From NCBI RefSeq assembly GCF_025490915.1, contig NZ_JANQBA010000003.1, positions 158,624 to 222,623 of the forward strand: a DNA stretch of 64,000 bases. The letters run 5' to 3'. Shown here one piece after another: positions 17,122-59,666 of this stretch (position 1 is the stretch's first letter; the number at the start of each line of letters is the position of its first letter). The stretch comes from Lacticaseibacillus parakribbianus (GTDB lineage: Bacteria; Bacillota; Bacilli; Lactobacillales; Lactobacillaceae). A program made the translations under genes and the position numbers. The notes below the pieces were generated by a model. The model saw only the letters and a list, made by a program, of their open reading frames with translations, was not told where the DNA came from and made no database searches.

Positions 17122-17362
17122 GTCCTCGCTTCCCTTCACTCACAGTCTTGGACGCCCAATATAACAGGCCGCAAGCCAGCTGGCAACTTCGGCGAGCCCA
17201 AGCGCGTCGCACCGGGCCTGGCAGGCGAAATTTTTGGCACGGCGGCGCGTGGCGGGTGAGCCGTGCCGGCCAAACGGTTCGCCGCTTCCTTGGCGGCCGC
17301 GGTCAAAAAAACGCACCGCCGCCCCTGCGGCGGTCAAGCCAGGCGCCGGTCAGCCAACGCCG
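17122..17362. other. Intergenic stretch between WxL cluster 1 and structured RNA copy A
   Basis: No gene-like frame with a ribosome binding site was found. Promoter elements for the 508-aa WxL gene must lie here but no clear -35/-10 pair stood out. Confidence 0.4.
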
Positions 17363-17747
17363 AAAAGGCCGCCGCAACGATTCGCGTTGCGGCGGCCGCG
17401 CCGAAGCCACCAGTCGCACACGCGCCGGTGGTCTTGGCCTGATTCGGTTAGGTTGCTGTCTTCGTCTTACCGTGGTAGTACACCATCGCTCTCGCCGGAA
17501 CCGCAGCTACCTCGCGATGCGAGTAGGTTTCGACTTGGTGCGACCGGTGGGTGGCAGTCCTTCGCCCTGGTTTCTCCTAGGATCAGGAGTTGCACTAAAG
17601 CTCTCGAGTTTAAAGTCGCGTGGACGATACACTGCGACTTGGCATGGGTATGGTACTGGAGGCGCTTGCGCTCCGGACCGTTCCCGTGCGGTGGCTACTC
17701 CGGCGACCGTGGCTTTGAGTCGTCGCCCCGCACTAAGATAATCATCT
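17363..17747 (-). ncRNA. Structured noncoding RNA, copy A (about 385 nt)
   Basis: Minus-strand transcript with promoter TTGACG (17777-17782), 17 bp, TAAGCT (17754-17759), ending in a GGCCGCCGCAAC hairpin followed by TTTT. It is clearly homologous over its whole length to copy B at 55678-56079. Long blocks are conserved (CCGAATCAGGCCAAG, AACTCGAGAG, CAGTGTATCG). Stems covary: AAGTCGC/GCGACTT here is AGGCCG/CGGCTT in copy B around the same loop, and CTCC/GGAG becomes CCCC/GGGG. The terminator stems differ in sequence but are both strong. No protein-coding frame is conserved. It is not RNase P, tmRNA, 6S, SRP RNA or a T-box by the core motifs I know. It is divergent from the AraC-family gene. 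Confidence 0.8.
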
Positions 17748-17753
17748 AATAGT

Positions 17754-17782
17754 AGCTTAACACCGGACCAATTAATCGTCAA
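17754..17782 (-). promoter_or_regulatory. Promoter of structured RNA copy A
   Basis: TTGACG, exactly 17 bp, TAAGCT. The same two boxes with the same spacing precede copy B. Confidence 0.7.
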
Positions 17783-17883
17783 CGTTTTCAATCTACCCTG
17801 TGCGATCTTGTTTTGTAAATATCCTTTGCGGCTTCCGGCCCGGCGGCGTAGTATGTAGGCAACCCGATGAAAAGGAGACCGCC

Positions 17884-18876
17884 ATGGATCGTGACGTTTT
17901 GCACCAGCTTCAAGCCCTCAGCCCAATCGAGCAGCAGCAGCGCCAAAGCCGCCAGGTTGCCGACGACATCCCCCCGGCGGCCCTGGACCTGGGCCTCAGT
18001 GAAACCACGAATATGCCGGTGCTCAACGACTATTTTTTCCGCAACCGCAGCATCTACGTCTCCAAGCACAACCGCTTCGCCGCCTACCCGCTCCATACCC
18101 ACCAGTTCCTCGAGCTCAATTACATGCTGACCGGCACGGCCGTCGAGCACGTCAACGGCCAGCGGGTGGTGCTGCAGCAAGGCGACCTGCTGCTTTTGGA
18201 CAGCGGCAGCCGCCACGCCATCGAGGCGCTGGGCGAAGGCGACTTGCTCATCAACGTGCTTTTTCGCGACCAAAACATCTCGCTGGACCTGCTCACCCGG
18301 CTGCAAAGTCAGCGCAGCGTGTTGTACGACTTCCTGGCCAAAAGGGTCCAGCCCAAGCAGCCCCGCGGGTTCGTGCGGTTCGCCGGCACCGCGCAAGGCG
18401 AGGTTCAGGCCACCCTGCAGCGCCTGATCACCGAATACTACCAAGGCCGCGAGCTGGCCGACACGATTTTGCAGGCCGAGCTCACTGTACTTTTGGCCCA
18501 GCTGAGTCGCAACTACCCGCAACCCGCGGCCAAGCTCACCAGTGGTCAAGCGCTGGCGCTGCGCATGCTCAAGGCGATTCACGAAGACTACGCCCAGGTG
18601 TCCCTGGGCGGCCTAGCGACGGCGCTCAACTACAACCGTAACTACCTGGGCAACCTGTTTCGCCGCGAGGTCGGCCAGACCTTCAGCGCCGCTTTGACCC
18701 AGGAACGCCTGTTGCGAGCCCGTGACGCCATCCAGACCACGGAAAAACCGCTGCGCCTGATTGCCCAGGAGGTGGGGCTGCGCAACACCAGCTTCTTTTA
18801 CACCCACTACGCCGCGCAGTTCGGTCACGCCCCCAAGGTCGACCGCGCCACGGGCCCAAGCGACCTGCGGCTGTGA
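17884..18876 (+). CDS. AraC-family transcriptional regulator, 330 aa
   Basis: N-terminal cupin-like sensor (about residues 50-150; HTHQFLELNYML, LQQGDLLLLDSGSRH) and C-terminal double helix-turn-helix of the AraC type (about 225-325; VSLGGLATALNYNRNYLGNLF, then IAQEVGLRNTSFFYTHYAAQFG). The ATG at 17884 follows GAAAAGGAGACCGCC. It probably senses a sugar or related small molecule and controls a nearby promoter. The alcohol dehydrogenase downstream on the same strand and RNA copy A upstream, divergent, are the candidate targets, but no operator was identified. Confidence 0.88.
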   Translation: MDRDVLHQLQALSPIEQQQRQSRQVADDIPPAALDLGLSETTNMPVLNDYFFRNRSIYVSKHNRFAAYPLHTHQFLELNYMLTGTAVEHVNGQRVVLQQGDLLLLDSGSRHAIEALGEGDLLINVLFRDQNISLDLLTRLQSQRSVLYDFLAKRVQPKQPRGFVRFAGTAQGEVQATLQRLITEYYQGRELADTILQAELTVLLAQLSRNYPQPAAKLTSGQALALRMLKAIHEDYAQVSLGGLATALNYNRNYLGNLFRREVGQTFSAALTQERLLRARDAIQTTEKPLRLIAQEVGLRNTSFFYTHYAAQFGHAPKVDRATGPSDLRL

Positions 18877-55677: not shown

Positions 55678-56079
55678 AAAAAGCCGGGGGCTGTCGTAAT
55701 CACGACAGCCCCCGGCCGCGCCGAAGCCACCGGACTCACACTGTCCGGTGGCCTTGGCCTGATTCGGTTACGTTGCTGGCCTCGTCTTGCCAAAGTGGTG
55801 CCATTGCGCCCACCGGTTCCGGACACCGCGCGGCTGACTCGGCTGGGAGTGGCGGTGGCCGGCCTGCAGCCGGTGGGGTGGTGCAAGGTCCCTGGTATTC
55901 CCCTAAGTATGGTCCCGGGGTTGCACGAAAACTCTCGAGTTGAAAGCCGTGTGGCGATACACTGCGGCCTGGCATGGGTGGGGGCTGTCGCCTTGGTGCG
56001 AACCGCTGGCGCAGTCCCGCGCGGTGGATACTACGGCAACCAAGGCCTTGGCCGCCTCCCCGCACAAGAACAATCATTC
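55678..56079 (-). ncRNA. Structured noncoding RNA, copy B (about 400 nt)
   Basis: Homologue of copy A at 17363. Promoter TTGACG (56109-56114), 17 bp, TAAGCT (56086-56091); terminator CCGGGGGCTGTCGT with its complement and TTTTT. Between them lie conserved blocks in the same order as in copy A and stems kept by compensatory changes: the GCCACCGGA/TCCGGTGGC stem near the 3' end, GTGCAA/TTGCAC, and the hairpin around CAGTGTATCG. It follows the double Rgg-like regulator gene on the same strand. No conserved reading frame; function unknown. Confidence 0.8.
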
Positions 56080-56085
56080 GAGTGT

Positions 56086-56114
56086 AGCTTAACACCAGAC
56101 CAATTTTCCGTCAA
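56086..56114 (-). promoter_or_regulatory. Promoter of structured RNA copy B
   Basis: TTGACG, 17 bp, TAAGCT, identical boxes and spacing to copy A. Confidence 0.7.
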
Positions 56115-58859: not shown

Positions 58860-59034
58860 TGTTTTCGTCTCCGTTTGTCGGCCCCGCTGGACCGTTGCTT
58901 GGCGGCCATCACAGGCCCCACTGTTCGTCGGTCGCCGCCGCGGCGGCAACACATCACGGCCCATTCTACCGTACTTTCGCGCCAGGTTTCAACCGCCGCG
59001 CCTTCCCGGAAGGAAACTGGTGTTCTATAATGGG

Positions 59035-59343
59035 AAGAGCGAAGCCGAGCGGGTTTAGCGGGACGGCTAGCGTAAGACTGGGCGTTGGGCCGCACTTGGC
59101 CCGGCGACCGGTCTGAGCTAGCCGCTCCGGCGATGCTCGGCGTAGCTCGACAGAGAAGAGCGAAGCGGGGCGGGTTTAGCGGGACGGCTAGCCTAGCGCC
59201 GCGAGTTGGGACCCGCACTTGGTCCCAAGTCGCGGTGCGTAGCTAGCCGCTCCCGCGTTGCCCCGCGTAGCTCGACAAGGAAGAGCGAAGCCGAGCGGGT
59301 TTAGCGGGACGGCTAGCGTAAGGCTGGGCGTTGGGCCCGACCC
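59035..59343 (+). repeat. Dispersed palindromic repeat, locus 3 (two full units plus partial third)
   Basis: Plus orientation. Unit start AAGAGCGAAGC lies at 59035, 59156 and 59281 (periods 121 and 125). Each unit folds on itself: outer arms GCCGAGC/GCTCGGC in unit 1 are GCGGGGC/GCCCCGC in unit 2; GGCTAGC/GCTAGCC is constant; inner GGGCC/GGCCC in unit 1 is GGGAC/GTCCC in unit 2. Loops GGGTTTAGCGGGAC and CGCACTTG are conserved. Confidence 0.88.
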
Positions 59344-59666
59344 ACGGTTTCCACAGGTGTTGTGCATAAATGGACCCACCGCACTGCGTCTGTCGACCGC
59401 ATGCTGCAAGGGCGGAGGGCGGCGCGGCAAGGGAGCCGTGAAAGGATTGGCCGCCCGGATGACCCGCGCTTTTTGCGGGGCATTCGCGTGACCAATCCCG
59501 GCAAAGCCAGAGACAACCAAGGGAGCCGCAGGCGACGGTTGGCTCTGGCTTTAGGTTGGAGCCCAACGGGCGGAAACCGGCCGCACCGCCCCCTTGCCGC
59601 GCCGCCCGGAGCCCCCGCTGCCGACACGCAAACACACCAAACCGCAAGAAGAAAGGAGGCGTCACC
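59344..59666. other. Upstream region of the helicase operon
   Basis: Contains a hairpin AAAGCCAGAG/CTCTGGCTTT (59503-59552) with a short T-run that could be an attenuator or the end of an upstream transcript. No ORF with a ribosome binding site and no clear promoter. Confidence 0.4.

Follow-up and report, generated by a model that had tools for sequence, protein, structure and literature searches.

What kind of genetic element is represented by the two similar RNA units encoded on the minus strand of the window (the whole 64-kb stretch of DNA that was analysed), and are these two units all there is? A preliminary description of the window had taken them for a duplicated structured RNA. Comparison of sequences bears out that the units are free-standing, paralogous and covarying; they are not a pair, however, being members of a family with at least 61 loci in the same genome.

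The two copies in the window

Copy A, a predicted class I RNA, occupies positions 17363..17747 of the minus strand from the inferred start to the T-run of the terminator, both ends being deduced from the sequence. The putative promoter of this unit, as read from the sequence, consists of a -35 box TTGACG (17777..17782, minus strand) and a -10 box TAAGCT (17754..17759, minus strand). The RNA would begin with a mini-hairpin AGAU-GAUU-AUCU (17736..17747, minus strand), which was found by a permissive hairpin search run without a control, and continue into the domain of helix P1, with the outer stem GUGCGG/CCGCAC, that was delineated from the alignment and pairing counts (17686..17733, minus strand). 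The core that is common to both classes of the family (17483..17678, minus strand) matches covariance model R2 at 156.8 bits and contains helix P6 (17483..17550, minus strand), the outer stem of which comprises seven pairs, six of them with changes on both sides among 28 sequences. The alignments show a conserved block, CCTACTCGCATCGCGAGGTAGCTGCGG, within this helix (17501..17527, minus strand). The 3' hairpin P7 (17400..17438, minus strand) is predicted from pairing counts and the fold, and the intrinsic terminator (17363..17397, minus strand) from the sequence, a hairpin rule and the fold.

Copy B (55678..56079, minus strand) is a predicted class I RNA of the B subfamily, delineated by sequence, alignment and fold. 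Its -35 box TTGACG (56109..56114, minus strand) and -10 box TAAGCT (56086..56091, minus strand), likewise read from the sequence, are those of copy A, in agreement with the preliminary description (TTGACG-17-TAAGCT in both). The core of copy B (55810..56012, minus strand) matches model R2 at 117.7 bits; core coordinates differ by a few bases between models R1 and R2. The intrinsic terminator of copy B (55678..55716, minus strand), identified by the same three lines of evidence as that of copy A, is unlike the latter in sequence, so that the claim of two strong terminators of different sequence at these positions holds as well. The two copies are 70% identical over 410 aligned nt, and a search of the genome with copy A retrieves copy B with E = 4e-31. 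Both fold more stably than their shuffled versions (z = -2.3 for copy A and -3.2 for copy B); folding by itself is a moderate signal only.

The window, with both copies, was compared to Rfam, and none of the 4227 families, including ROOL, GOLLD, OLE and HEARO, was matched at the gathering score, in accord with the earlier statement that none of the familiar large RNA families fits. At E <= 10, the stretch 17200-17900 gave 14 matches, all below gathering, and a search of six further loci (representing B, C, D1, D2, E and a G006 A-like copy) at E <= 0.1 returned an adjoining tRNA and one below-gathering match. When one C-type copy was compared by blastn to collections of plasmids (72,556 records) and phages (50,697 records), no match was obtained, and no description of this RNA family was found in the literature by title or abstract start.

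The window also contains, at 59030-59345, an array of a palindromic repeat of approximately 121-125 bp that is dispersed across the genus, with 40 arrays found in the same genome and many matches in the genomes G006, G001, G008 and G013. It looks like a large REP-type repeat.

Extent, classes and transcription signals of the family

The preliminary description proposed building a covariance model from the copies and searching related genomes with it. Copy A alone as the query yielded 54 matches in its own genome (G000, a draft assembly of 2.82 Mb in 32 contigs, with the window on contig C23), and model R1, built from 39 core sequences, yielded 59. Model R2, built from 28 sequences representing both species and both classes, produced 59 matches in G000 and 14 in G006, which we infer to be L. 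kribbianus, and, at the threshold used, no matches in the other 28 of the 30 Lacticaseibacillus genomes searched (86 candidates scored, so that weak distant homologs might have escaped). In 63 sequences totaling 358 kb (the window, the loci of the copies and five additional stretches), R2 had 59 matches. Of these, 58 extend over the full model and the remaining one is truncated at the end of a contig; no weaker match appeared up to E = 1. Two more class II copies are fragments at contig ends (L118 and L119) which, together with the 59 model matches, make up the at least 61 loci in G000.

Searches at the family and order levels, with six candidates scored per genome, a number small enough for weak distant homologs to be missed, gave matches in two of 397 genomes (G000 and G006) and in one of 395 genomes (G000), respectively. 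Judged by one ABC protein encoded in the window, the nearest named relative is L. suihuaensis (91%, compared to 89% for L. kribbianus), a species that, by the same protein, is not represented in the genome set. To the extent that sequence comparison can do so, these searches show that copies A and B are members of a clade-specific family of structured RNA genes, which is divided into two classes.

An RNA pattern was also matched by two GTDB contigs (Myxococcaceae and Thermoleophilia) and three viral contigs, all treated as chance; R2 found weak partial matches in four of these five sequences (15.6-19.6 bits) and none up to E = 1 in the fifth (L142). The loci L117 (C4:80358) and L046 (start of C2) correspond to the 5' half and the 3' half of one class I copy, with GATTATTC on both sides; apparently, this is a single copy split by an insertion sequence.

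Clustering of 72 cores separates 61 class I from 11 class II copies, and the core of both classes carries the block CNAC-loop-GAG..AGC.GCG. From the inferred start to the terminator T-run, class I RNAs span 379-442 nt (47 of the 61 measured), and class II RNAs span 414-418 nt in G006 (5/5) and either 529 or 625-632 nt in G000 (6/6). The longest sense frame per copy ranges from 32 to 140 codons across the 72 copies.

The fold is supported by covariation in both an intra-class and an inter-class comparison. Within class I (alignment A2, which comprises 39 copies from an initial set of 40, with L017 left out because a contig end truncates it), the 35 pairs of six helices are 97.6% paired and 17 of them have changed on both sides, with a covariation score of 0.372 compared to 0.142 +/- 0.008 for shuffles and at most 0.096 for slid pairings. 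Across both classes and both species (alignment A3, 28 of the 72 cores), 17 pairs are 95.4% paired, 11 of them have changed on both sides, and the score is 0.474 compared to 0.135 for shuffled alignments and at most 0.085 for slides; in both cases, the alignments that served for scoring had also served for choosing the helices, which favors the latter, a bias that the slide control partly offsets. The compensatory stem changes that had been noticed between copies A and B are genuine and recur throughout the family. In addition, the permissive search without a control finds a short hairpin 4-9 nt after the -10 box at all 69 promoters, in forms that include AGAU/AUCU, GAAU/GUUC, AGUG/CACU and GAUG/CAUC.

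A promoter of the form TTG(A/C)C, exactly 17 bp, TA...T precedes 69 of the 72 copies. Two of the exceptions, L009 and L046, are truncated by the end of a contig or by an insertion sequence. The third (L081:2483-2676, class I, from G006) no longer has the -10 box or the 5' domain and lies in the opposite orientation to L030, the G000 copy that occupies the same interval. In the 32 C-type promoters, the TTGAC of the -35 box and the outer bases of the -10 box are invariant, and parts of the spacer vary. The promoter pattern CGAGYWTAAAADTTGACGG, which reaches C-type and class II promoters only, those of A- and B-type being different, has 42 matches in the genome with up to three mismatches, 40 of these at family loci by position and two elsewhere (L115 and L116), compared to none for the reversed pattern. 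Terminator-like hairpins were recognized by a simple rule in 53/72 copies and in 4/72 control stretches; the 19 copies that the rule misses (nine class I and ten class II) are to be read in light of its tendency to overlook the longer class II terminators. The class II copies of the D2 group (L074-L077) contain, between the promoter boxes, a palindrome like CAGGTAA-CCG-CTTACCTG that resembles a putative operator.

In most copies, these signals delineate a predicted transcription unit in its own right, which starts from a sigma-70-type promoter and ends in an intrinsic terminator. The distance between the promoter boxes, the presence of terminators and the pairing are kept while the flanks and terminator sequences have diverged, from which we infer that most units are probably under selection.

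The C-type copies (for example, L027-L045) contain a hypervariable hairpin region between P6 and the 3' hairpin, the length of which is 81-87 nt in most of these copies although the sequences are hardly alike. A conserved scaffold combined with such a region could be construed as a family of sibling regulatory sRNAs that, similarly to FopS, would pair with mRNAs, with copy-specific targets dictated by the variable hairpin, and multicopy sRNA families do exist. However, in comparisons with flanking sequences, the variable region matches its own flanks no better than those of other copies, in either the sense or the antisense orientation; the spacing of the copies (see below) is left unexplained by this scenario, and the size and ornate fold are unlike those of typical pairing sRNAs, so we consider this role improbable. 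A guide-RNA function of the variable hairpin was rejected given that there is no excess of matches to the own flanks.

With regard to the genomic context, the preliminary description emphasized a regulator gene beside each copy. The AraC gene near copy A is confirmed by Pfam, whereas the Rgg gene beside copy B is unconfirmed, the 590-aa gene at this position giving a sub-threshold HTH match. As a rule, proximity to regulators does not extend to the family: the sampled neighbors of other copies are mostly housekeeping, metabolic and transport genes, and the regulator neighbors of A and B look incidental. For the copies other than A and B, the closest called genes above 240 nt number 50 on the upstream and 50 on the downstream side, and the products of ten on each side were scanned. 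These 20 proteins include EF-Tu, TypA/BipA, ClpX, an RlmL-like protein, serine dehydratase and an M29 peptidase, along with two proteins without a family, one Rgg-like protein (L025) and a protein (L064) that contains a LacI-type sugar-binding domain. Two tRNAs are present across the 57 copy loci and the window.

The orientation of the neighbors, as counted with a simple custom gene caller, bears on a possible role in cis. Of the 73 copies, 54 have an upstream gene in their own orientation (for three, none was called); the downstream gene has the orientation of the copy in 40/73 cases and the opposite one in 33/73. A role as a cis-regulatory leader or attenuator of the next gene would be compatible with the terminator at the 3' end and with the palindrome TACnTTGC...CAAnGTA that is found within 700 bases downstream of 6/11 class II copies (L072, L073, L088, L089, L090 and L091) and 0/61 class I copies, close to the next gene, which after L072 encodes what we take to be a PadR-type regulator by the look of the sequence. 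Nevertheless, the opposite-strand genes largely refute such a role, and the sampled neighbors share no common function, making this the least credible of the explanations considered.

Evolution of the copies

Six of the 14 copies in G006 share the site and orientation with a G000 copy (L078, L079, L080, L084, L088 and L089), and L091 has a downstream gene block in common with L059, in reversed order. At the six shared sites, the RNA cores are 71-79% identical between the species and 89-100% identical to a paralog in the same genome; the identity of the flanks is 68-91%, in places no higher than that of the cores. On the evidence of these identities, the copies within one genome are shown to evolve in concert. 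In addition, some C-type copies combine 5' and middle modules of different subtypes (L031, L037, L040 and L045 compared to L030 and L036), as inter-copy recombination would give.

A comparison by segment within five subfamilies of three to 20 copies shows cores that are 91-99% identical, promoters at 68-91%, and terminators at 52-64%, coming close to the aligned flanks at 26-57%. All but one of the five subfamilies are most similar in the core; the exception is the E group, where the core is equaled by the next segment. This pattern of identity by segment, together with the shared sites and the similarity to paralogs in the home genome, fits old dispersed genes that would have been homogenized by gene conversion, most simply, better than recent transposition.

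The observations on mobility have to be weighed against this scenario. A selfish or domesticated non-autonomous mobile unit that consists of the promoter, the RNA and the terminator, and is spread by some enzyme whose target immunity creates an exclusion zone, would account for the dispersed intergenic sites, for the difference between 61 and 14 loci in the two species, for the exclusion zone described below and for the lack of a copy in G006 at either window site, the matching flanks being 218 bp apart in G006 vs 640 bp in the window in one case and 68 vs 701 bp in the other. Exact insertion borders were sought at these two empty sites, and the intergenic regions proved too diverged for alignment. 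A published pipeline also classes multicopy motifs as mobile or repeat candidates (PMC11109978). On the other hand, among 46 class I copies, neither direct or inverted end repeats nor target duplications were found above a mismatched-end control, and identity tapers toward the ends instead of forming a flat stretch with a sharp edge. No truncated remnants were found in G000 within the reach of the model, and no transposase or nuclease gene was identified among the 28 proteins scanned around the copies. The retention of the promoter, the pairing and, mostly, the terminator in individual copies further argues against mobile or repeat status for these putative genes, and we regard a mobile unit as unlikely.

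Spacing on the chromosome and relationship to known systems

The smallest of the 42 gaps between neighboring copies in G000 is 19.1 kb, with 0/42 under 19 kb (61 placed copies, leaving out the 5' half of the copy split by the insertion sequence), and the chance of such a minimum under uniform placement with the same number of copies per contig is P ~ 10^-11.4 (about 4e-12), in a post hoc test that was devised after the positions had been viewed. None of 5000 simulations produced a minimum so large or a coefficient of variation (CV) so low, and gaps below 15 kb, of which 13.9 were expected, numbered zero; the simulation counted the 5' half of the split copy separately (62 placed copies, 43 gaps), and the result was the same without contig-end copies (38 gaps). 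The minimum is 24.2 kb for the 13 gaps between class I and class II copies and 26.2 kb for the 11 gaps between inverted neighbors, both of these being subsets of the gaps tested above. Given that such gaps keep the distance too, loss by recombination between similar direct copies is insufficient to explain the spacing. Beyond the exclusion zone, placement looks random (observed CV 0.56 vs 0.51 in a hard-core simulation). In G006, the nine gaps have a minimum of 55 kb, a weak trend (P ~ 0.05). The palindromic repeat with 40 arrays (40 of 89 candidates scored), which is denser than the RNA family and hence not a matched control, has 17/28 gaps under 19 kb, a CV of 0.78 and a mean gap of 18.4 kb, and looks randomly placed at its own mean gap.

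Our preferred, although tentative, interpretation, to which we assign a probability of roughly 0.4, is that of a functional, clade-specific family of structured RNA genes with a local mode of action at the chromosome. The RNA would act near its source locus as a chromosome-associated structural RNA, either alone, or oligomerized, or together with a nucleoid protein, and the chromosome would require an RNA source every few tens of kilobases. Such a need for local action would account for the 19-kb minimum whatever the class or orientation. Conceivably, the spacing itself could be selected, in which case the approximately sixty spread RNA genes, with their local products, would constitute an RNA-based genome-wide spacing or anchoring system in one Lacticaseibacillus clade; this extension is no more than possible. 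That the RNA is made and selected is suggested by the signals described above, and the local action is a guess. Given that G006 gets by with 14 copies and shows only a weak trend, a fixed requirement for one copy per ~40 kb would not hold in general, and an exclusion rule without extra regularity would be expected from insertion immunity as well.

Position would be irrelevant, and the spacing a by-product, if the family encoded a freely diffusing, abundant trans-acting RNA, produced at high dosage by numerous gene copies in the manner of rRNA or of ROOL in L. salivarius, that functions alone, as an oligomer or as an RNP. The own promoters and terminators, the similarity of the RNA bodies within a genome, the mixed gene neighbors, the 5' mini-hairpin and the fold that is more stable than shuffles are all compatible with this possibility. 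It does not, however, predict a 19-kb exclusion that holds across classes and for inverted neighbors, and no tandem cluster was seen; we consider it rather doubtful, although this RNA and the element with target immunity are the alternatives to be taken seriously.

The RNA family can be compared to several known systems. Bacterial rRNA operons are dispersed copies that are homogenized within a genome, as in this RNA family, which differs in having far more copies, in being clade-specific and in lacking a match to any rRNA family in Rfam. HEARO-like structured RNAs, which are borne by mobile elements, reach dozens of copies in some genomes; the family described here differs in that it is unmatched in Rfam and that the 28 proteins scanned around its copies include neither a nuclease nor a transposase. 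Identity with REP or BIME elements was rejected: these are short palindromes, of 14-40 nt in E. coli (PMC12306157), compared to units of about 380-630 nt with a promoter and a terminator. The naRNA4 of E. coli, a repeat-encoded noncoding RNA that helps condense the nucleoid (PMC6907758), is a precedent for the chromosome-organizing role that we guess here (PMC6907758, PMC12306157). It derives from a REP element (REP325), whereas the family in question consists of predicted independent transcription units with a complex fold.

With ROOL, GOLLD and OLE, these RNAs share the large size and ornate fold with many stems and, with the first two, occurrence in Lactobacillales (PMC12286853; PMC5643018). 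In one L. salivarius strain, ROOL is reported to equal 16S rRNA in abundance (PMC12286853). Unlike these RNAs, the present family is encoded by chromosomal multicopy genes that are not prophage-borne, the one C-type copy used as a query having no phage or plasmid match, and has no Rfam match.

The FopS sRNA family of Bacteroides thetaiotaomicron (PMC11697453) is also encoded by dispersed paralogous noncoding RNA genes with their own promoters within one genome, the very features by which the predicted genes described here qualify as siblings. However, FopS has 14 members that pair with mRNAs (PMC11697453), whereas the 2.8-Mb genome described here has no fewer than 61 loci for RNAs of about 380-630 nt that are ornate, evolve in concert and are spaced. 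A multicopy family of structured noncoding RNAs is a known kind of system; what is new is the combination of copy number, concerted evolution and exclusion spacing, and possibly more. Should the family turn out to be mobile, it would be an unusual element, with the promoter, the fold and mostly the terminator intact in nearly every copy; should the RNAs act in place, they would represent an RNA-based way to organize a bacterial chromosome.
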